A DNA stretch of 64,000 nt from Candidatus Stoquefichus sp. SB1 (GTDB lineage Bacteria > Bacillota_I > Bacilli_A > Erysipelotrichales > Coprobacillaceae). Under the pieces are notes generated by a model, which ran no database searches, was not told the DNA's origin, and saw nothing but the letters and a program-made list of their open reading frames with translations. Numbering within the stretch: the first letter of the stretch is position 1; each line of letters starts with the position of its first letter. The stretch is from the NCBI RefSeq assembly GCF_001244545.1, contig NZ_LN852694.1:713747-777746 (forward strand), in the 5' to 3' direction. The position numbers were made by a program, and so were the translations under genes. Shown one piece after another: positions 2,071 through 59,651 of this stretch.

Positions 2071-3074
2071 GTTTAATATCAACATATAATGTTTTGAAAT
2101 CAAAAAATATGTTGATCAAGGAAAAATTCCATCATGTTTAATATCAACATATAATGTTTTGAAATTAAAATTAGGTGTAATATCTAAAATGAGCGTAACA
2201 GTTTAATATCAACATATAATGTTTTGAAATAATTTATTGTAAGTGTCATAAATCTGATAATATTTGTTTAATATCAACATATAATGTTTTGAAATACCTG
2301 TATACCAGAGGAATGAATCTTTCTGAAGACGTTTAATATCAACATATAATGTTTTGAAATATTGTATATGTTTTTTTACCTTCAATACCCGAATATGTTT
2401 AATATCAACATATAATGTTTTGAAATTGAAAATGACAAAGGAACGCATGAAGAAAACCAATGGTTTAATATCAACATATAATGTTTTGAAATGAATGACA
2501 TTGATAAACTCATGCCTGCAATCAGCATGTTTAATATCAACATATAATGTTTTGAAATTAATTCTTCATCATATTTTAATTGCTCCAATAAAAGGTTTAA
2601 TATCAACATATAATGTTTTGAAATCTGGAAAGCTGAAAGTAGCTGCAGGAACAGTATTAGGTTTAATATCAACATATAATGTTTTGAAATGATAAAGAAC
2701 GCCGAACTCACCATTACTATAATTTTGTTTAATATCAACATATAATGTTTTGAAATTACTTAGCTTTTGAAACATATTCTCCACTAGCTAAGGTTTAATA
2801 TCAACATATAATGTTTTGAAATGACGTAGACAATGTTGTTAAGGTTGTGTTAGATGCCTGTTTAATATCAACATATAATGTTTTGAAATACCAATTTATA
2901 ATTTTTATTAATTCTGTTTAATATCAACATATAATGTTTTGAAATAATAGTCAACGTAACGATTACAAGAAGATTTAACTGTTTAATATCAACATATAAT
3001 GTTTTGAAATATGCCACTAGCATAAATTTTATCAATAATCTCTTTATTTTAATATCAACATAATGTTTTGAAAT
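2071..3074 (+). CRISPR. CRISPR array 1, type I-B, 16 repeats and 15 spacers
   Basis: Thirty-base repeats begin GTTTAATATC and end GTTTTGAAAT, with starts at 2071, 2136, 2201, 2266, 2331, 2397, 2463, 2529, 2595, 2661, 2727, 2793, 2860, 2916, 2981 and 3047. Spacers are 35-37 bases, except the one at 2890-2915, which is only 26. The last repeat (3047-3074) has lost its first G and two internal bases, marking the distal end. The terminal GAAAT of the repeat is typical of type I-B arrays. The array lies directly upstream of cas6 and in the same direction. Confidence 0.98.
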
Positions 3075-3234: not shown

Positions 3235-3276
3235 TTAGACAGAGTAAAAAAAGGTTTAAAGAAATGAGGAGTGATG

Positions 3277-3972
3277 ATGAAAGTATATGAATATAAGGTA
3301 AAAATAAAATTAAAGGAAGATTTAGAATACTGTCAGCTTGCTGAAAAAACAAGCTATTTTATTGATAGTGTATTAACTGAGAATAATGAATTTTTATCAT
3401 ATCATACAAGTACACAATATAAAGGATATGTCCATGATTTATTATATCCAATTGAAGAAACGGGGATATACAAGAAGAATAGAGTATATACTATGCGAAT
3501 TCGTATGATTGAAGAAAAAATAGTTAATTACATAATAGGAAAATTATCTTTTCATGAAACAAAAGAAATACAAGGTGTAGGAGGAGAAATTAAAATAATC
3601 CCCAAAAGAGATATCCAAAGAATATATTCTATAACACCAATTATTTTAAAGAGTCCTGGTCTTGGGTATTGGAGAGGTCATATGACATTAGAAGAGTTTG
3701 AAAAAAGATTAAAAGAAAATTTAATCAAAAAATATAAATTCTTTACTGGTAAAGATGTAGATGAGAGTTTGCCATTATATGATCTGATAGAGTTTAAAAA
3801 TAAAGTTCCAGTGAAAATGCCTTATAAAAATATTAATTTATTAGGTGATAAAATAGTTTTGGAAGTTGCTCAAAATCATCAAGCACAAGAGTTGGCTTAT
3901 TTAGCATTAGGCGTTGGTTTGTTAGAGAATAACAGTAGAGGATTTGGATTTGTTAATTTTAAATATTTATAG
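3277..3972 (+). CDS. cas6: CRISPR-associated endoribonuclease Cas6
   Basis: Cas6 cuts the CRISPR transcript within each repeat to release mature guide RNAs. This 231-residue protein has the two-ferredoxin Cas6 layout and ends with the glycine-rich loop LENNSRGFGFV (about residues 217-227) diagnostic of the family. The ATG at 3277 is chosen because GAGGAG ends about five bases upstream; GTG 3271 and ATG 3274 are too close to that site. It is the first gene of the cas operon and is followed 14 bases later by cas8b. Being next to array 1, it presumably processes both arrays, whose repeats differ at only two positions. Confidence 0.93.
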   Translation: MKVYEYKVKIKLKEDLEYCQLAEKTSYFIDSVLTENNEFLSYHTSTQYKGYVHDLLYPIEETGIYKKNRVYTMRIRMIEEKIVNYIIGKLSFHETKEIQGVGGEIKIIPKRDIQRIYSITPIILKSPGLGYWRGHMTLEEFEKRLKENLIKKYKFFTGKDVDESLPLYDLIEFKNKVPVKMPYKNINLLGDKIVLEVAQNHQAQELAYLALGVGLLENNSRGFGFVNFKYL

Positions 3973-3986
3973 AAAGGGGTGAAGAT

Positions 3987-5774
3987 ATGCTACAAGAGGC
4001 AGTAGAAGTCTTTGAAAAAAAATTGAGAAATAATGGTAGAATCATTATTGATTCACATACATTAAAAGATGGAACATATAGATTGATTGAAATAGGAGAT
4101 AATGATGATTGGAAAATCACAAAAACTTTAGATATTTATTTTGATAAAAAATCTAAAGAGATTGTTGGCAGTACAGATGAAGATTATTTATTTATTCAAG
4201 AACTAGATTATTACAGTAAACTTTTAGAAATGAATAAGCCAATTGATTCTAAAAAGATTATACATACAAATAACTATCTCACTATTGCTGTAAAAAAAGA
4301 AAGTATTATCAATGATAAACTCACTCCTGAAGTCATGAAAAACTTTTTTAATATACTTAGAAATCCTATTGTGAAGTATGAAAAAAAAGCCAAATCAAGA
4401 GAACTATACAAGAACATAGAAGAGAAACTTAGACAAGTAGATATTGATTTAATTGATAAGATAGAAAATTATGTTTTTAATCATGATATCTTTGAAGACA
4501 TTGATATGACTAAGAAAAACTATGTCAAAGTATTTTTTATTTTTACAGATAGAGATAAAACAATTGCTTATTATAAACAAGAAAGTGAACGTTATTTACT
4601 TCCTAATTTATACAATAGCAACGATTATAACTATAACGATGATGGGGTTATTTTAGGATTACCAAATAATAATATGGGAATGAATTCCAAAAAACCTTAT
4701 TTAGAAAATAAAACGCGTAAGGTTAAAGTCCCTTATTTATTGAATCAACAGAAAGCATTACTCCAATCACAATTCTTTGATTATTTATTAGGTGAAGTAT
4801 CTAAAGGTAAGTATAATTTTTATATTAATAATTTTGAAGGTAATGAAGATATAAAAGCCTATACGGATTTAGAAGAACCTGATGATATATTGAGTGGATA
4901 TTATTTGAGATGTCGTAAAGAAAAAAATGAAGTTGAAATCGTTCATGCAGATAGTATAACAAATTATTCAAAGACTTTAAATGAACCGTTTATTCTTAAA
5001 AATTATATAGGTATATCACAAAAAGATATAGACAAATCTACACTTCCTTATGATACTATGATAGATAATTTATGGCAGATTCGCCATTTGATTGATAGTG
5101 TATTTTTTGAAGGAAGATTACAGTTTAATTTTTATAGCAGAATAGAGGATATGCAAATCGATGATGCAGTATTAAAAAGTTGTTTATTAGAAAATCGTGG
5201 TGTTTTATCTGCTTGGTTTTATGAAAGCAAAGATAACTTAGTCAAATCATCAGTAGATAAGCTCTCAATGCAACTTATTAGAAATGCCATTATTAATGAC
5301 GAAACTTTTAAAGCACAAAGACAATTTAATTTAAGATGGTCTTTATTATCATATTTTAAAGATGAGAGGAGAATAGGCGAAAATATGGAAGATATACGAG
5401 AAAAACTTAGACAACACATAAATTCAGGAAAAGATGAAGAATGGACATTTGATAGTGACGAAGAATTTTCTTATGCAGTGGGACAGATTGCTGAATATTT
5501 CTTATCACTCAATAAATCTAATAACAAGTCAGCTGCATATATTAATACGTTTTTAAACGCAAAGAATGCTGCTTTAGTGAAAAAAAAGGTAGAGAATGCA
5601 TATAAGAAATATAGTTATTCAATTTATCCTTTTAAGAGTAGTAGAGTGCAACAATTGGTAGATCATATTATGATGTATAAGCCACACAAAATATATACTG
5701 AATATATTTTAGCTGGTTTTTGTGCTGCAATGTTAGTTTATGAAAAGAACAAGGAGGAAGATAATAATGAATAA
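3987..5774 (+). CDS. cas8b: Type I-B Cascade large subunit Cas8b (Csh1-like)
   Basis: Cas8b is the large subunit of the type I-B surveillance complex and helps recognise the PAM and load the target. The protein has 595 residues, the usual size, and its sequence is poorly conserved as expected for Cas8. Identity rests mainly on position between cas6 and a clear Csh2-type cas7. The middle part (NMGMNSKKPYLENKTRK, near residues 230-247) resembles Csh1 proteins. A good ribosome site (AAAGGGGTG) precedes the ATG. The gene overlaps cas7 by eight bases, implying coupled translation. Confidence 0.87.
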   Translation: MLQEAVEVFEKKLRNNGRIIIDSHTLKDGTYRLIEIGDNDDWKITKTLDIYFDKKSKEIVGSTDEDYLFIQELDYYSKLLEMNKPIDSKKIIHTNNYLTIAVKKESIINDKLTPEVMKNFFNILRNPIVKYEKKAKSRELYKNIEEKLRQVDIDLIDKIENYVFNHDIFEDIDMTKKNYVKVFFIFTDRDKTIAYYKQESERYLLPNLYNSNDYNYNDDGVILGLPNNNMGMNSKKPYLENKTRKVKVPYLLNQQKALLQSQFFDYLLGEVSKGKYNFYINNFEGNEDIKAYTDLEEPDDILSGYYLRCRKEKNEVEIVHADSITNYSKTLNEPFILKNYIGISQKDIDKSTLPYDTMIDNLWQIRHLIDSVFFEGRLQFNFYSRIEDMQIDDAVLKSCLLENRGVLSAWFYESKDNLVKSSVDKLSMQLIRNAIINDETFKAQRQFNLRWSLLSYFKDERRIGENMEDIREKLRQHINSGKDEEWTFDSDEEFSYAVGQIAEYFLSLNKSNNKSAAYINTFLNAKNAALVKKKVENAYKKYSYSIYPFKSSRVQQLVDHIMMYKPHKIYTEYILAGFCAAMLVYEKNKEEDNNE

Positions 5775-6696
5775 AAGAGTATATGGAGTTTTAGGAGTCA
5801 GTTCTATTATGGCAAATTGGAATGCTGATTTTACAGGATATCCAAAAAGTACAAGTAATGGAGATACTTATGGTAGTGATAAAGCTTTCAAATATCCTAT
5901 GAAAAAAATGTGGGAAAATCAGGGTGAAAAAGTCCTTTATATTAAATCAATGCAACTTTTATCAGATAAAAATGGAGAGACATATTTATCTCCCCTTAGT
6001 TTAAAAGAAAGATACGAGTATTTATTTAATGTTAATAATTTAAAAGATTGTAAAGATGCTTCAGAAGTTTTGAAAAATTTATTTAGTGCCATCGATGTTA
6101 AAAATTTTGGTGCTACCTTTGCTGAAGCCGGAATGAATATTTCTATACCAGGTGCTGTGCAATTCGGACAAGGATTTAATAAATATAGCGATACAGAACC
6201 TCTAGAACAACAGATTCTTTCTCCTTTCCGCGATGCTAATGATATGGAGGCAAAGAACTCAACTTTAGGAACAAAAATTGTTAGTGATGAAGCTCATTAT
6301 TTTTATCCATTTGTTGTCAATCCAGACGCCTATAATGAATTTGCAAGATTAAAAGTCACAGATGGTTATACTGATGATGATTATTTGAAGTTCAAAGAAA
6401 CATCACTTGTTTCAGCGACTGCTTTTGCAACAAATTCAAAAGAAGGCTGTGATAATGAATTTGGATTATTTGTAGAAACTGATAGTCATCTTTATTTACC
6501 AAATTTAACAGAATATATTGATTTTGAAAAAGGTGATAAGCAAAATATTATCAATATAAACTTAAAAGAAATCTTGAGTGGAGTAGAATCTCAAATTCAA
6601 ACAATAGAAGTTTATTATAATCCCGTAACAACAGTCATAAATTGTGATCTTGAAGGAGTTAAATATTTTAATATTGTGACTAGAAAAGAGGTATAA
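5767..6696 (+). CDS. cas7: Type I-B Cascade backbone subunit Cas7 (Csh2-like)
   Basis: Cas7 polymerises along the guide RNA to form the backbone of the interference complex. The N-terminus (RVYGVLGVSSIMANWNADFT) and the segment KAFKYPMKKMWENQGEKV match the Csh2 form found in type I-B systems. The protein has 309 residues, as expected. The start at 5767 follows AAGGAGGAAG within the end of cas8b. Only three bases separate it from cas5. No substitution or truncation is visible. Confidence 0.95.
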   Translation: MNKRVYGVLGVSSIMANWNADFTGYPKSTSNGDTYGSDKAFKYPMKKMWENQGEKVLYIKSMQLLSDKNGETYLSPLSLKERYEYLFNVNNLKDCKDASEVLKNLFSAIDVKNFGATFAEAGMNISIPGAVQFGQGFNKYSDTEPLEQQILSPFRDANDMEAKNSTLGTKIVSDEAHYFYPFVVNPDAYNEFARLKVTDGYTDDDYLKFKETSLVSATAFATNSKEGCDNEFGLFVETDSHLYLPNLTEYIDFEKGDKQNIININLKEILSGVESQIQTIEVYYNPVTTVINCDLEGVKYFNIVTRKEV

Positions 6697-6699
6697 TTT

Positions 6700-7404
6700 A
6701 TGAAAGCTTTGAAATTTACTTTAAAAGGGAAAACAGCTTTCTTTAAAAATCCAGAAGTAAATACTTATTACTATTTTACATATGGCAATATACATAAACC
6801 AGCCTTGTTAGGACTTTTTGGAGCTATACTTGGTTATCAAGGTTATGAAAGTGAATTCGATACTTATCCTCAATACTACAATAAACTAAAAGATCTCTCT
6901 ATTTCAATAGTTCCAAGTAAGGAAAATGGACACTTTTATCGCAAAATACAATATTTTAATAATTCTGTAGGATATGCATCTCAAGAACAAGGGGGTAACC
7001 TTGTTGTGAAAGAACAATGGTTAGAAAATCCAGAATGGCATATCTATGTTCAAATAAATAATGAAGAGAGTCAAAACTTAGCAGAAATGATTTTGAATAA
7101 GCAATGTATTTATACACCATATCTTGGTAAAAATGATCATCTTGCGATTATAGAAGATGCAAAATTAGTTGACCTTCATGAACAAGATTTAAAAGACATA
7201 CAGATACATAGTTTATCTTTGGCTTCAATGATAGAATATAATTGGCGAACAGCAATGTTTAAATATGAAGAATACTTGCCAATGAGTTTAAAAGAAAGTA
7301 CAAATCATTATCAGCTAGAAAAAATGTTATTAACTGATGCTGTAGTCAAAAATAGTCATGTTCCTATATTTTCTGATGGAGAAGAAAATGTTACATTTTA
7401 TTGA
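6700..7404 (+). CDS. cas5: Type I-B Cascade subunit Cas5
   Basis: Cas5 caps the 5' handle of the guide RNA in the Cascade complex. The N-terminal signature MKALKFTLKGKTAFFKNPEV and the following HKPALLGLFGAILGYQGY are characteristic of Cas5 of the Hmari/I-B type. The length of 234 residues is normal. The start is preceded by GAGGTATAATTT immediately after the cas7 stop. The 3' end overlaps the chosen start of cas3 by 17 bases. Confidence 0.95.
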   Translation: MKALKFTLKGKTAFFKNPEVNTYYYFTYGNIHKPALLGLFGAILGYQGYESEFDTYPQYYNKLKDLSISIVPSKENGHFYRKIQYFNNSVGYASQEQGGNLVVKEQWLENPEWHIYVQINNEESQNLAEMILNKQCIYTPYLGKNDHLAIIEDAKLVDLHEQDLKDIQIHSLSLASMIEYNWRTAMFKYEEYLPMSLKESTNHYQLEKMLLTDAVVKNSHVPIFSDGEENVTFY

Positions 7405-9922
7405 TTATAATGAAATTATCGATGAACATTCCCTATTCTATGCACATACTCATGATGATAAAAAAGAATTATTAAAAGAGCATATTGAGAAATGTCAAAA
7501 TTATTTTCAAAAACTATATGATGAAAAAAATGTAGAAAAAATTATTCAAAGATTTCAGCAAAATTTGCATTTTCAAAATGAGAATGCAAGTTTTGACTTT
7601 TTAAAAGAATTAATGATTCAACTTGTATCTTTTCATGATTTTGGAAAAATCAATCCTGAATTTCAAAGAATAAAGATGCATAATCGTGTTGGTAAAGCAT
7701 ATAGCGGATTGACAAAGTCAGAGCATTCATTTTTTTCAGCTATTATTTATTTGGATTATTTTCTTGATAAACTATCATTGAATAGTCAATTAGTACAGAA
7801 TGATAAATATATAATGGAAAGAATTATTTTTGAACATGCATATATTATTGCTAGACATCATAGCCACTTAGAAAATTTATTACAGTTTAAACAACGTTTA
7901 AAAGATAAACAAACACAATATTTCATTAAGAACTTATTATCAAATCCGTTAAATGGTTATAGTGGGCTAAAGTATATAAATGAAAGAAAGCTTTTATTAC
8001 TGGCAAATCATCTTTATGATGATCAACCAAAATATTCTTTTGAAGAATCAGCTGTGCATTATTTCTACTATCGTTTATCTTATTCACTTTTAGTCGCAAG
8101 TGATTACTATGCAACGAGTGAGTTTATGAATGGATATGATTATAACATTATAGGGGATGTGCTCTCTATTCAAGACTTTCAAAAAGAGTATGATAATTGT
8201 AATTTAATGAAATCAATAAGAGAATATGAAAAAAAAGATTATCAAGGAACAATTAAACATTTAGATGATATTACAGAGATGAATCATTTAAGAAGTGAAT
8301 TGTTTTTAGATGCAGAAAAAAGTTTATTGGATAATTTAGATGCATCTATATATTTTTTAGAGGCACCTACTGGTAGTGGTAAAAGCAACACAGCAGTTAA
8401 TCTTAGTTTTCATCTAATGGAAGGTAGAAGGAAAATGTTCTATATTTACCCTTTCAATACACTTGTAGAACAAAACAGACAAGAATTGAAGAAACTTTTT
8501 CCTGATAAAAAATATCAGAATCAAATTGTTGTTGTGAATTCATTGACACCACTTCCTCAAAGTAATATCCAATGTTTGGATATTGATGATTCATCAGATT
8601 TCTATCAAAAATTATTGTTGGATAGACAGTTTTTAAATTATCCTTTCATTTTATCGACACATGTCAGTTTTTTTAACTTGCTTTTTGGATTTCAAAAAGA
8701 AGATGTTATTGGATTTCATCAATTGTCTGAATCAGTGATTGTATTAGATGAAATACAGAGTTATAAAAATAAAATCTGGTCAGAGATGATTATTATGTTA
8801 AAAGCATGTGCAGATTTAATGGATATGAAAATTATTATTATGTCTGCTACACTTCCCAATTTAGAAGAATTATCTGGACAAAGTCATGTTATAAAACACT
8901 TATTACCTAATTGCCAATTATATTATCAGCATACTTTATTTAAAAATAGAGTAAAGCTTCATTATGAATTATTAGATGAAAAAATAGACTTAGAAAAACT
9001 AAAAAATCATATATTAAGCCATCAAAATAAGGATAAGAAAATATTAGTTGAATTTATATTAAAAGAGACAGCATATAAGTTCTATAAAATGTTATTAGAA
9101 TCTAAGGATATCACTGTGGATGTAAAATGCTTAACAGGAGATGATTCTCTTATAGAACGTGAAAAAATTTTAAAACCGATTAAATTAGGTAAAACATCTG
9201 GTCTTATTCTTGTTGCAACGCAAGTTATTGAAGCAGGTGTTGATATTGATATGGATATCGGATATAAAAATATTTCATTACTTGATAGTGAAGAGCAATT
9301 TCTTGGACGAATTAATCGCTCTTGTAATAATAGTGGTGATGTCTATTTTTTTGATTTAGATTCCTATAAGTTGCTTTATCGTGAAGATTTCAGAAATAGT
9401 GAATCTCTGACTTTAAAAAGTGATGAGATGAGAATGATTCTTTCACATAAAGATTTTCCTCAATATTATCATAGAGTTATGAAAACTATGAAGAATAATA
9501 GAAATGAAAGTACTGATGAAAATGGACTTGATTGTTTTTTTAATGAATTTGTGTATAAGTTAAATTTCCCACTGATATCTGAAAGAATGAAATTGATTGA
9601 CGATAATTATTGGTCTATAGATGTTGTTTTATGTAGAAAACTAGAATTAGAAGATGGTGAAATTCTAGATGGTTGGGATGTTTGGAATCGTTACAAAGAT
9701 TTATTATTTAATTGTGAAATGGATTATTCTGAGAAACAAGTGAAATTGATTGAAATTAGAAGTCAATTAAATTATTTCACATATCGATTAAAGAACAATG
9801 TTGATCTTCATTATAATGATATTATTGGTGAATTACGTTGTATTGAAGATGCAAGTGAATTTTTTATTGATGGAAAGTTAGATAGGGATAAAATAGGGAA
9901 ATTAAATTATGCTTTTATTTAA
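7388..9922 (+). CDS. cas3: CRISPR-associated helicase/nuclease Cas3
   Basis: Cas3 is the nuclease-helicase recruited to target DNA by Cascade. The N-terminal HD domain shows HDFGKINPEF with the metal-binding His-Asp at about residue 83, followed by ARHHSHL. The helicase part has Walker A PTGSGKS near residue 327, DEIQ at 454-457, MSATLP, and a motif VI region (EEQFLGRINRS). Both catalytic halves look complete in 844 residues. ATG 7388 is chosen over the upstream ATG at 7358 because GGAGAAG precedes it at good spacing. The stop is directly followed by cas4. Confidence 0.95.
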   Translation: MLHFIDYNEIIDEHSLFYAHTHDDKKELLKEHIEKCQNYFQKLYDEKNVEKIIQRFQQNLHFQNENASFDFLKELMIQLVSFHDFGKINPEFQRIKMHNRVGKAYSGLTKSEHSFFSAIIYLDYFLDKLSLNSQLVQNDKYIMERIIFEHAYIIARHHSHLENLLQFKQRLKDKQTQYFIKNLLSNPLNGYSGLKYINERKLLLLANHLYDDQPKYSFEESAVHYFYYRLSYSLLVASDYYATSEFMNGYDYNIIGDVLSIQDFQKEYDNCNLMKSIREYEKKDYQGTIKHLDDITEMNHLRSELFLDAEKSLLDNLDASIYFLEAPTGSGKSNTAVNLSFHLMEGRRKMFYIYPFNTLVEQNRQELKKLFPDKKYQNQIVVVNSLTPLPQSNIQCLDIDDSSDFYQKLLLDRQFLNYPFILSTHVSFFNLLFGFQKEDVIGFHQLSESVIVLDEIQSYKNKIWSEMIIMLKACADLMDMKIIIMSATLPNLEELSGQSHVIKHLLPNCQLYYQHTLFKNRVKLHYELLDEKIDLEKLKNHILSHQNKDKKILVEFILKETAYKFYKMLLESKDITVDVKCLTGDDSLIEREKILKPIKLGKTSGLILVATQVIEAGVDIDMDIGYKNISLLDSEEQFLGRINRSCNNSGDVYFFDLDSYKLLYREDFRNSESLTLKSDEMRMILSHKDFPQYYHRVMKTMKNNRNESTDENGLDCFFNEFVYKLNFPLISERMKLIDDNYWSIDVVLCRKLELEDGEILDGWDVWNRYKDLLFNCEMDYSEKQVKLIEIRSQLNYFTYRLKNNVDLHYNDIIGELRCIEDASEFFIDGKLDRDKIGKLNYAFI

Positions 9923-9939
9923 TGAAAGGAAGTCTGAAT

Positions 9940-10431
9940 ATGAAGGTGAATGGAACATTAATGAATTATTATATTCACTGTCCAAGACAATGTTATTTAC
10001 ATGCTCATAGGCTTAATTTAGAGAATAATAGTGAAGATGTCAAAATAGGAAAAGCATTGCATGAAAGTAAGTATTTAAATGATGAGAATGCTGAAATTGC
10101 TATTGAGAATATTAGATTGGATAAGTTGACAAAAGAATATCTTACAGAAACTAAAAAAAGTGATGCAGATGTAGAAGCAAGTCGTTGGCAATTAATTTTT
10201 TATCTATATAAACTCAAAGAAAAGGGAATAGAAAGAAAAGGTAAGTTGGAATTTGTTCAGAAAAATAAAGAAAAGAAAACTGTAATTATTGAATTAAATG
10301 CTCAATTAGAAAAAGAATTGTTCATAAAAATGAATGAAATTGAAAGTTTGTTAGAGAGTGAACAAGTTCCTGATGTCGTAGAAAAGAAACATTGTAAAAA
10401 ATGTGCTTATTACGAATATTGTTATATCTAG
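9940..10431 (+). CDS. cas4: CRISPR adaptation exonuclease Cas4
   Basis: Cas4 is an iron-sulphur RecB-like nuclease that trims new spacer precursors and sets their orientation and PAM. The small I-B form is seen here (163 residues). An N-terminal cysteine lies in YYIHCPRQCYLH, and a C-terminal cluster (HCKKCAYYEYC) completes the ligand set. The RecB-type segment around SRWQLIFYLYKL lies between them. The ATG at 9940 is preferred to the one overlapping the cas3 stop (9922) because GAAAGGAAG precedes it. The gene overlaps neither neighbour. Confidence 0.92.
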   Translation: MKVNGTLMNYYIHCPRQCYLHAHRLNLENNSEDVKIGKALHESKYLNDENAEIAIENIRLDKLTKEYLTETKKSDADVEASRWQLIFYLYKLKEKGIERKGKLEFVQKNKEKKTVIIELNAQLEKELFIKMNEIESLLESEQVPDVVEKKHCKKCAYYEYCYI

Positions 10432-10441
10432 GAGAAAGAAA

Positions 10442-11443
10442 ATGGGATCAACAAAGTATATTACAAGTATGGGTGAATTGAGTCGTAAAGATAATTCGTT
10501 ATGTTTTAGAAAAAATCAGAAGAATGTTTATTTGCCAATAGAAAACATCAAAGAAATTTATTGTATGAATGAGATTTCAATAAATACAAAGCTACTTGAT
10601 TATCTTTCTAGTAAAAATATAGTGATTCATTTTTTCAATTATTACGGATTTTATTCTGGAACGTTTTATCCAAGAGAACAGTATAACAGTGGAAGATTAT
10701 TGGTTAAAGAAGTTGAATCTTATCATTCAGAAAAAAGAATTATTATTGCACAGAAAATTGTAAAGGCTATTGCTGTCAATATTGATGAAGTTTTATATCA
10801 TTATTATAAACATGATGTCAAGGAGGTGAAACAAACTATAGATTGGATTCGTAAAGACTTTAAGAAATTATTGTTTGAACAAACAGATATTCAATCCATT
10901 ATGCTATTAGAAGGAGAGTTATGGCAACGATTCTATTCAACTTTCCAATTTATTTTACCTGATGATTTCATGCTTAATAAGCGTGTAAGAAGACCACCAG
11001 ATAATCCAATTAATGCTCTTATTTCATTTGGAAATTCTTTATTGTATACAAAGTGTATTTCTGTTATATATCAGACACATTTGAATCAAACAATTAGTTA
11101 TCTTCATGAACCAAGTGAAAGTAGATTTTCATTAAGCTTAGATATCAGCGAAATGTTTAAACCTATTATTGTTTTTAAAACAATATTTGATCTAGTTAAT
11201 AATAAAAAGTTAAGAGTAAAAGATCATTTTGAAAAGAAAGTTAATTATTGTATTCTTAATGAGTCAGGAAGACAAATATTTATTCAGGCTTTTGAAGAAA
11301 GATTAGATAAAACTTTTGTAAATAAGAAACTAAATCGTAAAATGACTTATAAAACTGCTATTAAAATGGATTGTTATAAATTAATTAAATACTTATTAGA
11401 AGATAGAGATTTTGAATTCTTTTCATTGAAAGAAGGTCAATAA
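10442..11443 (+). CDS. cas1: CRISPR adaptation integrase Cas1
   Basis: Cas1 is the integrase that inserts new spacers at the leader end of an array together with Cas2. The 333-residue protein begins with the typical beta-rich N-terminus (KYITSMGELSRKDNSLCF). The helical catalytic domain has LLEGELWQRFY with the metal-binding glutamate near residues 157-159, and RVRRPPDNPINALISFGNSL. The start follows GGAGAAAGAAA. The TAA stop shares one base with the cas2 start, so the two are translationally coupled. Confidence 0.97.
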   Translation: MGSTKYITSMGELSRKDNSLCFRKNQKNVYLPIENIKEIYCMNEISINTKLLDYLSSKNIVIHFFNYYGFYSGTFYPREQYNSGRLLVKEVESYHSEKRIIIAQKIVKAIAVNIDEVLYHYYKHDVKEVKQTIDWIRKDFKKLLFEQTDIQSIMLLEGELWQRFYSTFQFILPDDFMLNKRVRRPPDNPINALISFGNSLLYTKCISVIYQTHLNQTISYLHEPSESRFSLSLDISEMFKPIIVFKTIFDLVNNKKLRVKDHFEKKVNYCILNESGRQIFIQAFEERLDKTFVNKKLNRKMTYKTAIKMDCYKLIKYLLEDRDFEFFSLKEGQ

Positions 11444-11905: not shown

Positions 11906-12326
11906 GTTTAATACCAACATATGATGTTTTGAAATCTGGTCAGCCCAAGTTCTTCGTTTGATGCCGCTGCGTTTAATACCAACATATGATGTTTTGAAAT
12001 AGCATATTTTTATAATCATAAATTCAAGGAAGATAAGTTTAATACCAACATATGATGTTTTGAAATTTTGTAATAATTTGTAAATATTAGGTTTAACAAG
12101 GTTTAATACCAACATATGATGTTTTGAAATCCAGTTGAGTCTATTTCTTCAATTGGTATATATAAGGTTTAATACCAACATATGATGTTTTGAAATAAAT
12201 TAAATTTCTGATTATTGTATGAGTCCAACATGTTTAATACCAACATATGATGTTTTGAAATTTCCTTTGACGATTTCTTCTTCCTGTACTTTTCCACGTT
12301 TAATACCAACATATGATGCTTTGAAT
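11906..12326 (+). CRISPR. CRISPR array 2, type I-B, 7 repeats and 6 spacers
   Basis: Thirty-base repeats start at 11906, 11971, 12037, 12101, 12167, 12232 and 12298, with spacers of 34-36 bases. The repeat differs from array 1 at two positions: C instead of T at position 9 and G instead of A at position 18. The last unit (12298-12326) has a T-to-C change and a lost A, so it is the leader-distal end. The shorter length suggests lower or more recent acquisition than array 1. The same cas set probably serves both. Confidence 0.98.
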
Positions 12327-12375
12327 CAAGTTTAATTTTAAAAAGTTATTAACCTGATTCGTAGAATAATAAAGA

Positions 12376-25247: not shown

Positions 25248-26438
25248 ATGGATAGAAGAGTAGGAACTATTTCAAGAGGAATTCGTTGTCCAATCATTAG
25301 AGAAGGAGACGACTTATGTAAAATTGTTGTAGACAGTGTTATGGAAGCAGCATATAGTGAAGGTTTTGGTTTAAGAGATCAAGATGTTATTTCTTTAACA
25401 GAATCAATTGTTGCAAGAGCACAAGGAAATTATGCATCAATTCAAGATATTGCTGATGATGTGAAAGCAAAATTAGGTGGAGAAACAATAGGGGTTATTT
25501 TCCCAATTATGTCACGTAACCGTTTTGCGATTTGCTTAAAAGGAATTGCTATGGGGGCTAAAAAAGTTGTATTGATGTTAAGTTATCCTAGCGATGAAGT
25601 AGGAAATGCATTATTAACTTATGATCAATTAGATGATGCTGGAATCAATCCTTATAGTGATGTTTTAACATTAGAGAAATATCGTGAATTGTTTGGCGAA
25701 AACAAACATGAATTTACAGGTGTTGACTATGTACAATATTATTCAGATATTATTACTGAAGCCGGTGCAGAAGTAGAAATTATTTTTGCTAATCGTGCAC
25801 AAGAAATTGTCAAATATACTGATTGTGTCTTAACTTGTGATATACATACACGTGCAAGAACAAAACGTCTATTAAAAGAAGCAGGAGCAAAAGCTGTATG
25901 TGGTTTAGATGATATCTTAACTGCATCTGTTAATGGAAGTGGATATAATGAAAAATATGGTTTATTAGGTTCTAATAAATCTACTGAAGATAAGATTAAA
26001 TTATTCCCAAGAGAATGTCAGGACTTGGTTGAAAATATTCAAAAAGAAATTTTACAATTAACGGATAAACATGTTGAAGTTATGGTCTATGGTGACGGGG
26101 CTTTTAAAGATCCTCAAGGAAAGATTTGGGAATTAGCTGATCCTGTTGTTTCACCTGCTTATACAAAAGGATTAATTGGAACACCTAATGAATTAAAATT
26201 AAAATATTTAGCTGATAATGATTTTAAGGATTTAAGTGGTAAAGAATTAAGAGATGCTATTGCAAAGAGTATTAAAGAAAAAGAAGATAATTTGGTTGGA
26301 AATATGGCCTCTCAAGGAACAACACCAAGACAATTAACTGATTTGATTGGTTCATTATGTGATTTGACAAGTGGTTCTGGTGATAAAGGAACGCCAATTG
26401 TATTGGTTCAAGGTTATTTTGATAATTTCACAGATTAA
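25248..26438 (+). CDS. CofE-like coenzyme F420-0:L-glutamate ligase family protein
   Basis: CofE adds glutamate to coenzyme F420-0 using GTP. This 396-residue protein has the family N-terminus (GIRCPIIREGDDLCKIV, DVISLTESIVARAQGN) and GTIS at the start. It is longer than archaeal CofE, with an extra C-terminal part (QDLVENIQKEILQLTDKHVEVMVYGDGAFKDP onward is one region). No F420 biosynthesis gene is visible, and gut Firmicutes of this kind are not known to make F420. The true substrate is therefore probably another acid-amine pair. It lies 12 bases upstream of a GMP synthase gene that lacks a working glutaminase domain, and the two are surely one operon. Confidence 0.82.
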   Translation: MDRRVGTISRGIRCPIIREGDDLCKIVVDSVMEAAYSEGFGLRDQDVISLTESIVARAQGNYASIQDIADDVKAKLGGETIGVIFPIMSRNRFAICLKGIAMGAKKVVLMLSYPSDEVGNALLTYDQLDDAGINPYSDVLTLEKYRELFGENKHEFTGVDYVQYYSDIITEAGAEVEIIFANRAQEIVKYTDCVLTCDIHTRARTKRLLKEAGAKAVCGLDDILTASVNGSGYNEKYGLLGSNKSTEDKIKLFPRECQDLVENIQKEILQLTDKHVEVMVYGDGAFKDPQGKIWELADPVVSPAYTKGLIGTPNELKLKYLADNDFKDLSGKELRDAIAKSIKEKEDNLVGNMASQGTTPRQLTDLIGSLCDLTSGSGDKGTPIVLVQGYFDNFTD

Positions 26439-26450
26439 GGAGAAGAAGAA

Positions 26451-27752
26451 ATGAAACAAGATATGATTGTCATTTTAGATTTAGGTAGTCACGAAAATAC
26501 AACAGTTGCACGTTGTATTAGAGATTTAGGTGTTTATAGTGAAATTAAACCACATGATATCACTGTTGATGAATTAAATGCTTTAGCAAATGTAAAAGGT
26601 GTTATTATTAATGGTGGTCCAAATAATGTTATTGATGGACAAGAAATTGATGTGGTTAGTGAATTATATACTGCTGGATATCCAATTCTTGCATTTGAAC
26701 ATAAGTTGGCTCAAGTCGATAATAGAACATATCCTGCTAATGAAGATGAGTTAAAAGATATTTTATCTGATTTTGTTTTCAATGAATGCCATGCTCAAAA
26801 GAATTGGAATATGAAAAACTTTATTAATGATCAAGTTGAGATTATTAGAAATCAAGTTGGTGATAAAAAAGTTTTACTTGCTTTATCAGGTGGAGTTGAT
26901 TCATCAGTTGTTGCTGCTTTATTAGTGAAAGCAATTGGTAAACAATTATATTGTGTACATGTGAATCATGGTTTAATGCGTAAGGGTGAATCTGAAGATG
27001 TTGTGGAAGTTTTCCAAAATCAATTAGATGCAAACTTGGTATATGTTGATGCAACAGAACGTTTCTTAACAAAGTTAGAAAATGTTGATGATCCTGAACA
27101 AAAACGTAAGATTATTGGTGCTGAATTTATTCGTGTTTTTGAAGAAGAAGCGAGAAAATTAGATGGTATTGAGTTCTTAGCTCAAGGAACTATCTATCCT
27201 GATATCATTGAATCTGGAACAAAGACTGCTAAGATGGTAAAATCACATCACAATGTTGGTGGACTACCAGAAGATTTACAATTTGAATTGGTTGAACCTT
27301 TATTCCAATTATTCAAAGATGAAGTTCGTGCTTGTGGTGTTGAACTTGGTTTACCATATGAAATGGTTTATAGACAACCATTCCCAGGTCCAGGACTTGG
27401 TGTACGTTGCTTAGGTGCAATCACAAGGGATCGTTTAGAAGCAGTAAGAGAAAGTGATGCTATTTTAAGAGATGAATTTGCGAAAGCAGGTTTAGATAAA
27501 AAAGTATGGCAATATTTCACAGTTGTCCCTGATTTTAAATCAGTTGGTGTAAAAAATAATGCCCGTAGTTATGATTATCCAGTTATTATTCGTGCAGTTA
27601 ATACTGTGGATGCAATGACTGCAACTGTTGAACAAATTGATTGGCCTATCTTAATGAAGATTACTAATCGTATTTTGGCTGAAGTGCCTAATGTCAATCG
27701 TGTATGTTATGACATGTCACCTAAACCATGTGCGACAATTGAATGGGAATAG
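26451..27752 (+). CDS. guaA: GMP synthase with a degenerate, shortened glutaminase domain
   Basis: GuaA converts XMP to GMP using ATP and ammonia, normally taken from glutamine by an N-terminal class I glutaminase. This protein has 433 residues against about 515. The C-terminal part is intact: PP-loop LALSGGVDSS, the lid region HHNVGGLPEDLQFELVEPL, and RQPFPGPGLGVRCLG and VCYDMSPKPCATIEWE at the dimer/XMP end. The N-terminal domain keeps its first half (ILDLGSHENTTVARCIRDLG, VIINGGPNNV). Where the catalytic cysteine motif (GICYGMQ in the family) belongs, it reads ILAFEHKLAQ. The later His-Glu region is gone. Ammonia or a partner must supply nitrogen. It is cotranscribed with the CofE-like gene. 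Confidence 0.93.
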   Translation: MKQDMIVILDLGSHENTTVARCIRDLGVYSEIKPHDITVDELNALANVKGVIINGGPNNVIDGQEIDVVSELYTAGYPILAFEHKLAQVDNRTYPANEDELKDILSDFVFNECHAQKNWNMKNFINDQVEIIRNQVGDKKVLLALSGGVDSSVVAALLVKAIGKQLYCVHVNHGLMRKGESEDVVEVFQNQLDANLVYVDATERFLTKLENVDDPEQKRKIIGAEFIRVFEEEARKLDGIEFLAQGTIYPDIIESGTKTAKMVKSHHNVGGLPEDLQFELVEPLFQLFKDEVRACGVELGLPYEMVYRQPFPGPGLGVRCLGAITRDRLEAVRESDAILRDEFAKAGLDKKVWQYFTVVPDFKSVGVKNNARSYDYPVIIRAVNTVDAMTATVEQIDWPILMKITNRILAEVPNVNRVCYDMSPKPCATIEWE

Positions 27753-55707: not shown

Positions 55708-57075
55708 ATGAAGAAGGATATGACAAGTGGAAGTCCATGGAAACTTATTATTGCATTTGGAATTCCGTTAGTGATTGGAAATATTTTTCAACAGTTTTAT
55801 AACATGGTAGATAGTATTATTGTTGGAAAATATGTTGGAAAGGTCGCATTGGCAGCAGTTGGGTCAACTGGATCATTGAATTTTATGATTATTGGTTTTG
55901 GGATTGGAATCTGTAGTGGATTTGGGATTCCAATAGCGCAAAGCTTTGGTGGTAAGAAAATCAAGCAAATGAAAGAGTATATTATCAATTCTTTTTATCT
56001 CTGTACGATAATTACGATTATTATGACAGTGATCACAGTTATTGCATTACCAACAATATTAACCTGGATGCAAACACCAGCAAATATTTATGATCAGGCT
56101 TATAGTTATATTGTTGTGATTTTTATAGGTTTATTTGCAACGATGATTTATAATATGTTAGCAAGTATTTTACGGGCTATTGGTGACTCGAGAACTCCAC
56201 TTTATTTTTTGATTTTATCATCTGTGATTAATATTGCACTAGATTTGTTTTTTATTACTCAGTTGAATATGGGAGCAGCTGGGGCTGCTTATGCAACTGT
56301 TATTGCTCAATTTATTTCAGGTATTGCCTGCTTTGTATATATGAAAAAGAAAACAGATATCTTAACATTTGAACATGATGAAAAAAGATTTCAAAAGGCA
56401 CATTGCTTCAAATTATTACAATTAGGATTACCAATGGCTCTGCAGTTTTCAATTACTGCGATTGGAAGTGTGGTTATTCAATCTGCTGTGAATACTTTAG
56501 GTTCAGATGTTGTTGCAGCAGTGACAGCAGCCATCAAGATTTCTGTGATGTTAACACAACCACTTGAAACATTAGGTTTAACCATGGCAACATATGGGGG
56601 ACAAAATCTTGGTGCCAATCAGGTTGAACGTATTTTCCAGGGGTTGAAAGTCAGTTGCATTATTGGTGCTATTTACTGTGCATTTGCGTTTATCTTTGTG
56701 TATTTGACATCTGATTATTTGTCCTTATTATTTATAGATGCGAGTGAAACTGCCATTATAGCAGATATTAAACAATATCTTTTATATAATTCATCTTGTT
56801 ATTATATTTTAAGTATTTTATTTATTTTAAGAAATCTATTACAAGGTTTAGGTTATAGTTTCTTGGCTATGTTTGGTGGCGTTGCTGAAATGATTGCACG
56901 TTGTATTGTTGCATTCTGTTTTGTGGGAATGTTTGGTTTTAGCGCTATCTGTTTTGCAAATCCAATGGCTTGGGTTTTTGCAGACGTTGTCTTTATTGGT
57001 GGCTGGCTATATAAACGTAAAGAATTAAAATTAATGATGAATCAAAAAAATGAATGTGTTGAAATGCATTCATAA
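55708..57075 (+). CDS. MATE family efflux transporter
   Basis: This 455-residue protein has twelve membrane segments in two matching halves. The first half shows GIPLVIGNIFQQFYNMVDSI (residues about 17-36) and SIVGKYVG; the second shows LGLPMALQFSITAIGSVVIQ. MATE proteins exchange cations for drugs or metabolites. It is followed 23 bases later by the Tet(M)-like fusion gene, so a shared transcript is possible. The start follows GGGGAGGG. Confidence 0.95.
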   Translation: MKKDMTSGSPWKLIIAFGIPLVIGNIFQQFYNMVDSIIVGKYVGKVALAAVGSTGSLNFMIIGFGIGICSGFGIPIAQSFGGKKIKQMKEYIINSFYLCTIITIIMTVITVIALPTILTWMQTPANIYDQAYSYIVVIFIGLFATMIYNMLASILRAIGDSRTPLYFLILSSVINIALDLFFITQLNMGAAGAAYATVIAQFISGIACFVYMKKKTDILTFEHDEKRFQKAHCFKLLQLGLPMALQFSITAIGSVVIQSAVNTLGSDVVAAVTAAIKISVMLTQPLETLGLTMATYGGQNLGANQVERIFQGLKVSCIIGAIYCAFAFIFVYLTSDYLSLLFIDASETAIIADIKQYLLYNSSCYYILSILFILRNLLQGLGYSFLAMFGGVAEMIARCIVAFCFVGMFGFSAICFANPMAWVFADVVFIGGWLYKRKELKLMMNQKNECVEMHS

Positions 57076-57098
57076 ATTGATAAAAAAGGAGGTGGCAT

Positions 57099-59651
57099 AT
57101 GAAAAAGTGTGTCATTGGAACATTAGCTCATGTTGATGCTGGGAAAACAACTTTAACAGAGAGCCTTTTGTATCTTACAGGAAGTATTCGTAAGTTAGGG
57201 AGAGTTGATCATGGAGATGCATTTTTAGATTATGATCATCAGGAAAGAGAAAGAGGAATTACAATTTTTTCTAAACAGTCTCTTTTACAATATCAGGATG
57301 TTGAGATCACTTTAATAGATACACCAGGTCATGTTGATTTTTCAGCTGAAATGGAAAGAACATTACAGGTTTTAGATTATGCAATTCTGGTTATTAGTGG
57401 ATTAGATGGAGTACAGGCACATACTCAAACAATTTGGAATCTTTTAAAGACATATCATATTCCTACTTTCTTATTTATTAATAAAATGGATATTTCTCAT
57501 TATCAGAAAAGTGATTTAATGAAAGAATTAAAAGAGAAATTAGATGAGCGATGTGTTGATTTGACTTCACAAAATGACTTTTATGAGGAAATAGCCTTAT
57601 GTGATGAAACATTATTAGATTATTATTTAGAACATCAAAGTCTTACAGAGATAATGATTCAAGATGCTATTATACAAAGACAAGTTTTTCCTTGTTTCTT
57701 TGGTTCAGCATTAAAAATGCAAGAAGTAGATTCTTTTTTAGAATCTTTATCACTTTATACAAAAGAAAAAAATTATCCTGCTGATTTTGGTGCAAAAGTT
57801 TATAAAATTACAAGAGATGAACAAGGACAACGTTTAACCCATTTGAAAATAATGGGTGGGTCATTGCATGTCAAGACACAGTTTGGTGATGAGAAAGTTG
57901 ATCAAATTAGAAAATATTCTGGTCATAAATATACTGTTGTGAATGAAGTTTATGCTGGTGACATATGTGCAGTCAAAGGTTTAAAAGCAATTCAGGCTGG
58001 AAGTGGGTTGGGATTTGAAGAACATGCTTTTCAGCCACATCTTACACCTTATATGAATTATCGGATTGTTTTGCCATCAGATTGTGATCGTTTTCAAGCC
58101 ATGTCTCAGTTACGTCAATTATCTGAAGAAGATCCAGAATTGCATATGACATATCATGAAGAAACGCAAGATATGACTGTTCAATTGATGGGGGAAATTC
58201 AAATAGATGTTTTAAAGAAAATGATTGCAGAACGTTTTCATCTTGATGTTGATTTTGATCAAGGACAGATTATTTATAAAGAAACAATATTAGAAACAGT
58301 TGAAGGTGTTGGGCATTTTGAACCATTGCGTCATTATGCTGAAGTCCATCTTTTATTAGAACCTGCACCTTTAGGAAGTGGATTACAATTTTCAACCAAT
58401 TGCTCTGAAAATATGCTAGATAAACATTGGCAAAGATTAATTTTGACACATCTTGAAGAGAAAGAACATATTGGTGTTTTAGCTGGTTTTCCGATTACCG
58501 ATATGAAAATCACAATATTGGCTGGGAAGGCTCATCAAAAACATACCGAAGGTGGAGATTTTAGACAGGCCACTTATCGTGCTTTAAGACAGGGATTAAA
58601 ATCAACTCAATGTCAACTCTTAGAACCTTATTATCAATTTTATCTTGATATTCCTGCTGAATATTTAAGTAAAGCAATCTATGATATAGAATCAATGGAT
58701 GGTGAATTTATTTTGCCAGAAACAATGGATCAAAATGTTGTGATTGAAGGAAAAGCCCCAGTTGCGAAAATGCGTCATTATCAATTAGAGGTGACACATT
58801 ATACCAAAGGCAAAGGGCGAATGTATTGTTCTTTGAAAGGGTATGAACCATGTCTTCATCAAGATGATGTTATTCAAAGTATCCAATATGATAGTGAAAA
58901 AGATATCAATAATCCTACTGGGTCTGTCTTTTGTTCACATGGTGCAGGCTTTTATGTCAAATGGGATGAAGTCAAAGATTATATGCATATTGATTTTCAA
59001 TATTCACCAAAACTTACTCAAGAATATCAGAAAGAATCTTATGCTTCCTCACTGCATGGAGATGAAGAATTGGAGGAGATTTTCAAACGCACGTATGGTG
59101 AAATCAAACGTCGGACTTTTCATGATTTTCAACCTGCTTTAAAAGAACACGTTCCTTCAATGACCTCACAACCAAAAGCAGAGTGTATATTAGTCGATGG
59201 ATATAATGTTATTCATGCATGGCCTGAATTAAAAGATCTCGCAAAAGATAACTTAGATGGCGCAAGATTTCGCTTACTCGATATGATGTGTAATTATCAG
59301 GGGTATAAAAAGTGTTTATTAATTGTTGTTTTTGATGCTTATCAAGTCAAACAGAATTTAGGATCAAGTGAACAATATCATAATATCCATGTTGTTTATA
59401 CCAAAGAATCACAAACAGCCGATATGTACATAGAAAGAGTAACGCATGAAATGGCTAATCAGTATCATATAACAGTTGTGACATCTGATGCGTTAGAACA
59501 ATTGATTGTCACTGGTGCAGGTGCTTATCGTATGTCATCTCGAGAACTGAAATTAGATTTAGAGAGATTGAATAAGGAGCATCACAATCATCAACAAGCA
59601 ACCAGTCGCAACTATCTTTTAGAAGATATCAAAAATTTTAAAAATGATTAA
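57099..59651 (+). CDS. Tet(M)-like translation GTPase fused to a YacP/NYN domain
   Basis: The first 650-680 residues form an EF-G-like ribosomal protection protein: G1 AHVDAGKTT, G2 region RERGITIFSK, G3 DTPGHVDFSAEM and G4 NKMD. Domains II-V follow, with KHTEGGDFRQATYRA in domain IV. Residues about 690-830 add an NYN domain of the YacP/Rae1 type, starting ILVDGYNVIHAWPEL and containing VVFDAYQVK, ESQTADMYIERV and VVTSDALEQLI. YacP-type domains are ribosome-linked endoribonucleases. At 850 residues the protein is about 200 longer than Tet(M). The ribosome site AAAGGAGG is near-ideal. It may remove drugs or rescue stalled ribosomes while cutting mRNA. Confidence 0.92.
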   Translation: MKKCVIGTLAHVDAGKTTLTESLLYLTGSIRKLGRVDHGDAFLDYDHQERERGITIFSKQSLLQYQDVEITLIDTPGHVDFSAEMERTLQVLDYAILVISGLDGVQAHTQTIWNLLKTYHIPTFLFINKMDISHYQKSDLMKELKEKLDERCVDLTSQNDFYEEIALCDETLLDYYLEHQSLTEIMIQDAIIQRQVFPCFFGSALKMQEVDSFLESLSLYTKEKNYPADFGAKVYKITRDEQGQRLTHLKIMGGSLHVKTQFGDEKVDQIRKYSGHKYTVVNEVYAGDICAVKGLKAIQAGSGLGFEEHAFQPHLTPYMNYRIVLPSDCDRFQAMSQLRQLSEEDPELHMTYHEETQDMTVQLMGEIQIDVLKKMIAERFHLDVDFDQGQIIYKETILETVEGVGHFEPLRHYAEVHLLLEPAPLGSGLQFSTNCSENMLDKHWQRLILTHLEEKEHIGVLAGFPITDMKITILAGKAHQKHTEGGDFRQATYRALRQGLKSTQCQLLEPYYQFYLDIPAEYLSKAIYDIESMDGEFILPETMDQNVVIEGKAPVAKMRHYQLEVTHYTKGKGRMYCSLKGYEPCLHQDDVIQSIQYDSEKDINNPTGSVFCSHGAGFYVKWDEVKDYMHIDFQYSPKLTQEYQKESYASSLHGDEELEEIFKRTYGEIKRRTFHDFQPALKEHVPSMTSQPKAECILVDGYNVIHAWPELKDLAKDNLDGARFRLLDMMCNYQGYKKCLLIVVFDAYQVKQNLGSSEQYHNIHVVYTKESQTADMYIERVTHEMANQYHITVVTSDALEQLIVTGAGAYRMSSRELKLDLERLNKEHHNHQQATSRNYLLEDIKNFKND

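Follow-up and report, generated by a model that had tools for sequence, protein, structure and literature searches.

A gene of Candidatus Stoquefichus sp. SB1, lying in the 64,000-nucleotide stretch of DNA analysed here (hereafter the window), encodes an 850-residue protein in which the five domains of an EF-G/Tet-type GTPase (residues 5-585) are followed by a C-terminal NYN domain of the YacP/Rae1 type (residues 697-838). We read this protein as a candidate chromosomal ribosome-associated translational GTPase with a Rae1-type endoribonuclease built into it, one that may have taken over the role of the separate rae1/yacP gene, a proposal for which belief and doubt are about evenly balanced. 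The fusion as such was already known; as far as could be checked, the replacement of yacP, the separate subfamily and a natural deletion series are new, although a 2018 work by Condon on the distribution of Rae1 may already describe the replacement of yacP by the fusion. A fusion that substitutes for Rae1 in many gut Firmicutes suggests a physical partner, an EF-G-like GTPase, and makes it testable how nucleases such as Rae1 are brought to paused ribosomes. Moreover, widespread genes annotated as TetM-family tetracycline resistance would probably be a chromosomal translation factor, a point that matters for surveys of resistance genes in the gut.

Atkinson 2015 (PMC4342817) describes a YacP-like NYN domain on Tet proteins of ten Clostridiales species, presented as Tet proteins that acquired an RNase domain, perhaps as a new resistance mechanism. 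The window protein, with the same architecture of a Tet-type GTPase and then a C-terminal YacP-like NYN domain, is a member of this group; compared with that set, however, the family reported here is far wider and chromosomal, falls beyond the Tet clade and excludes a separate yacP. Within the literature searched, from which subscription papers are mostly absent, PMC4342817 was the only source found to mention the fusion, and no functional study of it was found.

The first-pass annotation had claimed that a Tet(M)-like GTPase and a YacP/Rae1 domain are joined in one protein of 850 residues, and the fusion is real: a single uninterrupted open reading frame runs on the forward strand from the ATG at 57099 to a stop ending at 59651, and Pfam recognizes the domains in it. 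The gene and its parts are laid out as follows.

55708-57075: MatE-family drug-efflux-type transporter gene, ending 23 bp upstream of the fusion gene
57087-57092, forward: AGGAGG, likely ribosome-binding site, about 6 nt 5' of the fusion ATG (sequence reading)
57099-59651, forward: fusion gene, EF-G/Tet-type translational GTPase plus YacP/Rae1-type NYN nuclease, 850 aa (open reading frame, Pfam)
57111-57761, forward: G domain, residues 5-221, with AHVDAGKTT, RGITI, DTPGH and NKMD (Pfam GTP_EFTU, 172.6 bits)
57789-58004, forward: domain II, residues 231-302 (Pfam, 25.1 bits, slightly under the cut-off of 27)
58047-58256, forward: domain III, residues 317-386 (Pfam EFG_III)
58263-58604, forward: domain IV, residues 389-502 (Pfam EFG_IV)
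58311-58349, forward: domain-IV loop GHFEPLRHYAEVH, subfamily-specific (alignment)
58539-58565, forward: domain-IV tip KHTEGGDFR (alignment)
58614-58853, forward: domain V, residues 506-585 (Pfam EFG_C)
58854-58988, forward: ordered C-terminal extension, residues 586-630, with the SVFCSHGAG motif (alignment, AlphaFold2 model)
58989-59177, forward: linker, residues 631-693, mostly disordered (AlphaFold2 model, alignment)
59061-59105, forward: linker helix DEELEEIFKRTYGEI, retained in nuclease-only derivatives of genus g16 (AlphaFold2 model)
59187-59612, forward: NYN_YacP nuclease domain, residues 697-838 (Pfam; PDB 5mq8/5mq9)
59196-59198, forward: catalytic-type aspartate D700, in DGYN (alignments)
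59334-59336, forward: catalytic-type aspartate D746, in VFDAY (alignments)
59421-59423, forward: catalytic-type aspartate D775, in TAD (alignments)
59487-59489, forward: catalytic-type aspartate D797, in TSD (alignments)

The G motifs together with domains II to V, of which domain II falls barely below its cut-off, place the protein among the EF-G-type translational GTPases (EF2 family), and residues K16, T17, D74, G77, H78 and D131 of its G domain are found in 115/115 aligned proteins. An AlphaFold2 model built on a 59-row alignment (mean pLDDT 84.6, pTM 0.66) packs residues 586-628 as an ordered extension on the GTPase end and folds the NYN domain apart from it, with residues 639-654 and 670-690 disordered and a helix (655-666) between them. 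When the whole model was searched with Foldseek, EF-G and TetM structures were ranked, and the NYN part was absent from the 50 matches listed. The linker measures 58-120 aa (median 76) across 114 fused proteins. Mean identity to the window protein is 55.5% for the GTPase, 53.9% for the NYN domain and 25% for the linker; by this measure the nuclease is conserved as strongly as the GTPase part, and the linker is not.

The NYN_YacP match (PF05991) scores 171 bits against a Pfam cut-off of 24.6, which places the domain in this family, and residues 696-827 find YacP/Rae1 of Bacillus subtilis as their PDB sequence relative (5mq8/5mq9, E 1.3e-25). Rae1 is described as a translation-dependent endoribonuclease that cuts mRNA at the ribosomal A site (PMC6613710, PMC10100781), and for another NYN enzyme PMC11346440 identifies three clustered aspartates as the active site, where mutating one abolishes activity. 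Aspartates D700, D746, D775 and D797 are present in 114/114 aligned relatives with the NYN domain in the same open reading frame and, in a separate NYN set, in 37/37 fused and 20/20 separate YacP domains. The active-site pattern of the fused domain is thus intact, and the loss of catalytic residues that the first-pass annotation had named as a ground for abandoning its proposal is not what we find, since all four positions are invariant. The fusion thus shares with B. subtilis Rae1/YacP an NYN domain and its conserved aspartates, whereas Rae1 stands alone as a protein of about 170-180 aa and the NYN domain described here sits in a chain of 850 aa.

The genomic distribution of these domains points to mutual exclusion of the fusion and a separate yacP, and to the fusion standing in for the separate Rae1 gene. 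The fusion is the only NYN_YacP in the window's own genome and the only one over the cut-off in ten named genomes. Among 291 Clostridia genomes, 188 carry NYN_YacP over the cut-off; counted by frame length, with broken genes left unresolved, they comprise 100 fused, 84 separate and 4 ambiguous cases, while about 29 genomes with both would be expected if the two forms were independent. Contig breaks or frameshifts interrupt the fused genes of G716, G587, G757 and G606, as well as that of G760, initially counted as separate, and G751 and G675 were counted as fused because their domain-IV matches share the open frame at the contig start. After the broken genes were resolved, the Clostridia hold 105 fused, 83 separate and 0 with both, counts that are uncorrected for shared ancestry; second NYN_YacP matches in three of these genomes lie below the cut-off, and one genome (G669) has two fused copies. 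The 82 genomes of Desulfitobacteriia give 29 fused, 9 separate, 2 ambiguous fragments and again 0 with both, likewise uncorrected for ancestry.

An empty yacP slot provides evidence independent of these counts. Separate YacP relatives are located between rlmB and sigH, whereas the fusion gene lies elsewhere, and in 6/6 fusion genomes examined (the window's genome G000, G025, G339, G175, G531 and G530, the last with one additional open reading frame before rlmB) the cluster cysS-mrnC-rlmB-sigH occurs without yacP. In genome G704, yacP still fills the place between rlmB and sigH. The domain that defines Rae1/YacP as a separate gene of the rlmB-sigH cluster is here found within the fusion, with its usual slot empty.

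In the window's class, the NYN domain passes the cut-off in 38/395 genomes, of which 37 have it in a frame of at least 600 aa; in the 38th (G250), the fusion gene is split into two overlapping reading frames. The window's family retains the fusion in 16/17 listed genomes. A scan of named genomes, which favoured fused loci, returned at least 589 encoding loci, the best 80 of which come mostly from Lachnospiraceae, Oscillospiraceae and relatives and belong without exception (80/80) to the fused family, two of them cut by contig ends. Those two (L123, L141) are left out of the family alignment of the 80 named loci, and L069, whose gene is split, enters it without an NYN column. The fusion is no assembly accident, and the family is a widespread chromosomal gene. 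At locus L293 (G908), the fusion gene is broken into four reading-frame fragments, probably as a pseudogene or through poor assembly.

A natural deletion series was found in a genus of the same order as the window (g16), where 32 genomes with the NYN domain were examined and most carry frames of 810-872 aa. Proteins of 594 and 603 aa in G058 (L068) and G1003 (L290), 64% identical to each other, join window residue 386 to 647, so that domains IV-V are gone. These two loci encode a GTPase-nuclease formed of the G domain, domain II-III and NYN, from which the A-site-reaching part has been lost. Six of the 32 genomes (G998, G1013, G1020, G1021, G1025 and G1028) encode nuclease-only proteins of 201-218 aa whose start corresponds to roughly window residue 656 (in G1020, to 671), and therefore five of the six clearly retain the linker helix; the stretches examined around these genes, short for G1025, showed no remnant of the GTPase. 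Genomes G1023 and G1024 have shorter frames and were left out of these classes. A tree of NYN domains, from which a motif filter excluded 7/30 g16 loci (L302, L303, L304, L309, L318, L319 and L320) and to which three further matches without a locus did not contribute, groups the pair lacking domains IV-V (branch values 100/98) and the nuclease-only rows sampled in it (4 of the 6) with fused g16 relatives, apart from the ancestral separate YacP. As read from these sequences, reduction in g16 retained the nuclease and lost the A-site-reaching part first, and the occurrence of nuclease-only forms indicates that some lineages can do without the GTPase.

The GTPase also exists without its nuclease. 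Seventeen Clostridia genomes carry it without NYN, 10 of them with a separate YacP and 7 with none, a co-occurrence that is not significant (10/17 genomes, Fisher p 0.21), and nuclease-less forms are found on a Ligilactobacillus salivarius plasmid and on a viral-collection contig. Because the GTPase without NYN persists in several lineages, it has a role of its own, and as the parts have been separated both ways in nature, their coupling is not obligatory. These unfused sister proteins, of about 640-690 aa (one of 724) and present in Clostridia, Paenibacillus and Ligilactobacillus, are named by NCBI either TetM/W/O/S family or "translation factor GTPase family protein"; they have the same domain-IV loops as the fusion and lack both the linker helix and the nuclease. 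In the six whose ends were inspected, an SxFCxxG extension is followed by a stop, in some a few residues later, and most unfused relatives terminate within a few residues of the close of this extension, which locates the point of fusion at about window residue 630. Carriage by phages was considered and rejected, with 2 relatives among 55 viral-collection pattern matches, both matching without the NYN part. The one of the two that was read, a high-GC contig (L276), starts with an unfused member of 726 aa beside a lysin-like gene and may represent host DNA flanking a prophage.

The idea of Atkinson 2015 would make of this protein a ribosomal protection factor, with a GTPase that clears tetracycline or a different drug of the A site and an NYN domain that modifies resistance, and we consider it quite improbable. 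TetM is indeed the closest PDB relative of residues 2-584, and NCBI product names assign some relatives to the TetM/TetW/TetO/TetS family, so that calling the GTPase "Tet(M)-like" is justified in part, but identity is 30% to TetM (29-32% to Tet(M)/Tet(O)/Tet(W)/Tet(S)/TetB(P)) and the protein stands outside the Tet clade. In a quick-search tree of 61 GTPase parts, the fused and unfused sister set (54 subfamily rows) forms one group (100), while the five Tet(M/O/W/S/B(P)) rows form their own (99). The score of the fusion GTPase against NF012153, the curated model of tetracycline-resistance ribosomal protection proteins, is 430.9 bits, well under the cut-off of 775. Although both share the five-domain EF-G-like plan, the fusion differs from the Tet proteins in its C-terminal extension and domain-IV loops: the tip of domain IV reads KHTxGGDFR in the subfamily (KHTEGGDFR in the window) and SPVSTPADFR or SPASTPADFR in the five Tet proteins, where S-P-V/A-STPADFR is the drug-contact loop. 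Residues H406, E408, H412, Y413 and E415 of the other loop, GHFEPLRHYAEVH, are found in 115/115 fused and 19/19 unfused rows. Three plasmid-borne relatives in PLSDB have no predicted_resistance_gene row, unlike tet(M/O/W/S) and tetB(P). The drug-efflux-type MatE gene 23 bp upstream, which is probably co-transcribed with the fusion gene in the window, would fit a protection role, but this arrangement is not a conserved one, a MatE homologue occupying position -1 in 3/118 loci. In the 110 nt upstream, terminator-like hairpins occur somewhat more often at fusion loci (27/108) than at other genes (127/864), with 10/108 in a stricter scan; leader attenuation, which would have hinted at induction by a drug, was discarded, the enrichment being weak and the gap upstream of the window gene 23 bp. 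The fusion is thus probably not an ordinary tetracycline-resistance gene, and the first-pass interpretation is supported in part: a rescue factor rather than tetracycline resistance agrees with a chromosomal gene that scores below the curated cut-off, has a domain-IV tip unlike that of Tet proteins and takes the place of yacP.

We also give little probability to an NYN domain that trims or degrades rRNA or tRNA instead of mRNA, with the GTPase as an assembly or recycling factor. An earlier proposal about NYN domains, which Atkinson 2015 cites, and the many ribosomal states on which EF-G-type GTPases act would suit such a role; however, Rae1, the only studied close relative, is described in PMC6613710 and PMC10100781 as a translation-dependent mRNA cutter, and fused and separate domains have the same motifs. 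Somewhat less improbable, though still unlikely, is that the fusion mainly serves genetic convenience, one chain holding two ribosome-linked proteins that act independently of each other. The survival of both parts on their own (the nuclease in 6/32 g16 genomes, the GTPase in its own clades) and a linker of great and variable length, for the most part disordered, would agree with this, but retention in 16/17 genomes of the window's family argues against it, as does the tree of 61 rows, where the fused label needs no more than two changes, one of them due to the nuclease-less Ligilactobacillus plasmid protein amid fused rows, consistent with one origin and one loss.

Our preferred reading, a GTPase that brings its own Rae1-type nuclease to the ribosome, can be drawn as a sequence of steps. 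EF-G and Tet proteins insert domain IV into the A site. By its EF-G/Tet fold, the GTPase part would bind ribosomes with an empty or blocked A site, which its domain IV would probe; after GTP hydrolysis or domain-IV withdrawal, the NYN domain could reach the A-site mRNA on its flexible linker of about 60 residues and, by analogy with Rae1, cut it, and the message on the paused ribosome would be destroyed. We infer sequential, GTP-gated action because one A site should not have room for domain IV and a Rae1-like nuclease at once. A more specific version, which we put forward as rather doubtful, is a "probe, then cut" surveillance where the domain-IV loops GHFEPLRHYAEVH and KHTxGGDFR would sense an unusual, non-tetracycline state of the A site and GTP hydrolysis would gate the swap to the tethered nuclease; if true, it would represent a GTP-controlled decay of A-site mRNA replacing free Rae1 across many gut Firmicutes.

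No conserved operon or neighbour of the fusion family was found among 118 loci, where the most frequent neighbour groups, ABC-type ATPases and histidine-kinase-like proteins, each occur in at most 14. Elsewhere in the window there are two CRISPR arrays (2071-3033 and 11906-12346) with nearly identical 30-nt repeats in 15 and 7 copies, the last repeat of the second being degenerate, and between them a cas gene set with Cas7, Cas3 and Cas1 (genes at 3271-11443), which we take to be probably of type I-B. A GMP synthase gene (26451-27752), beginning 12 bp after an F420-0:gamma-glutamyl ligase-like gene (25248-26438), has a truncated glutamine amidotransferase domain that stops after profile position 76 of 190, and this shortened enzyme is perhaps an ammonia-dependent form.
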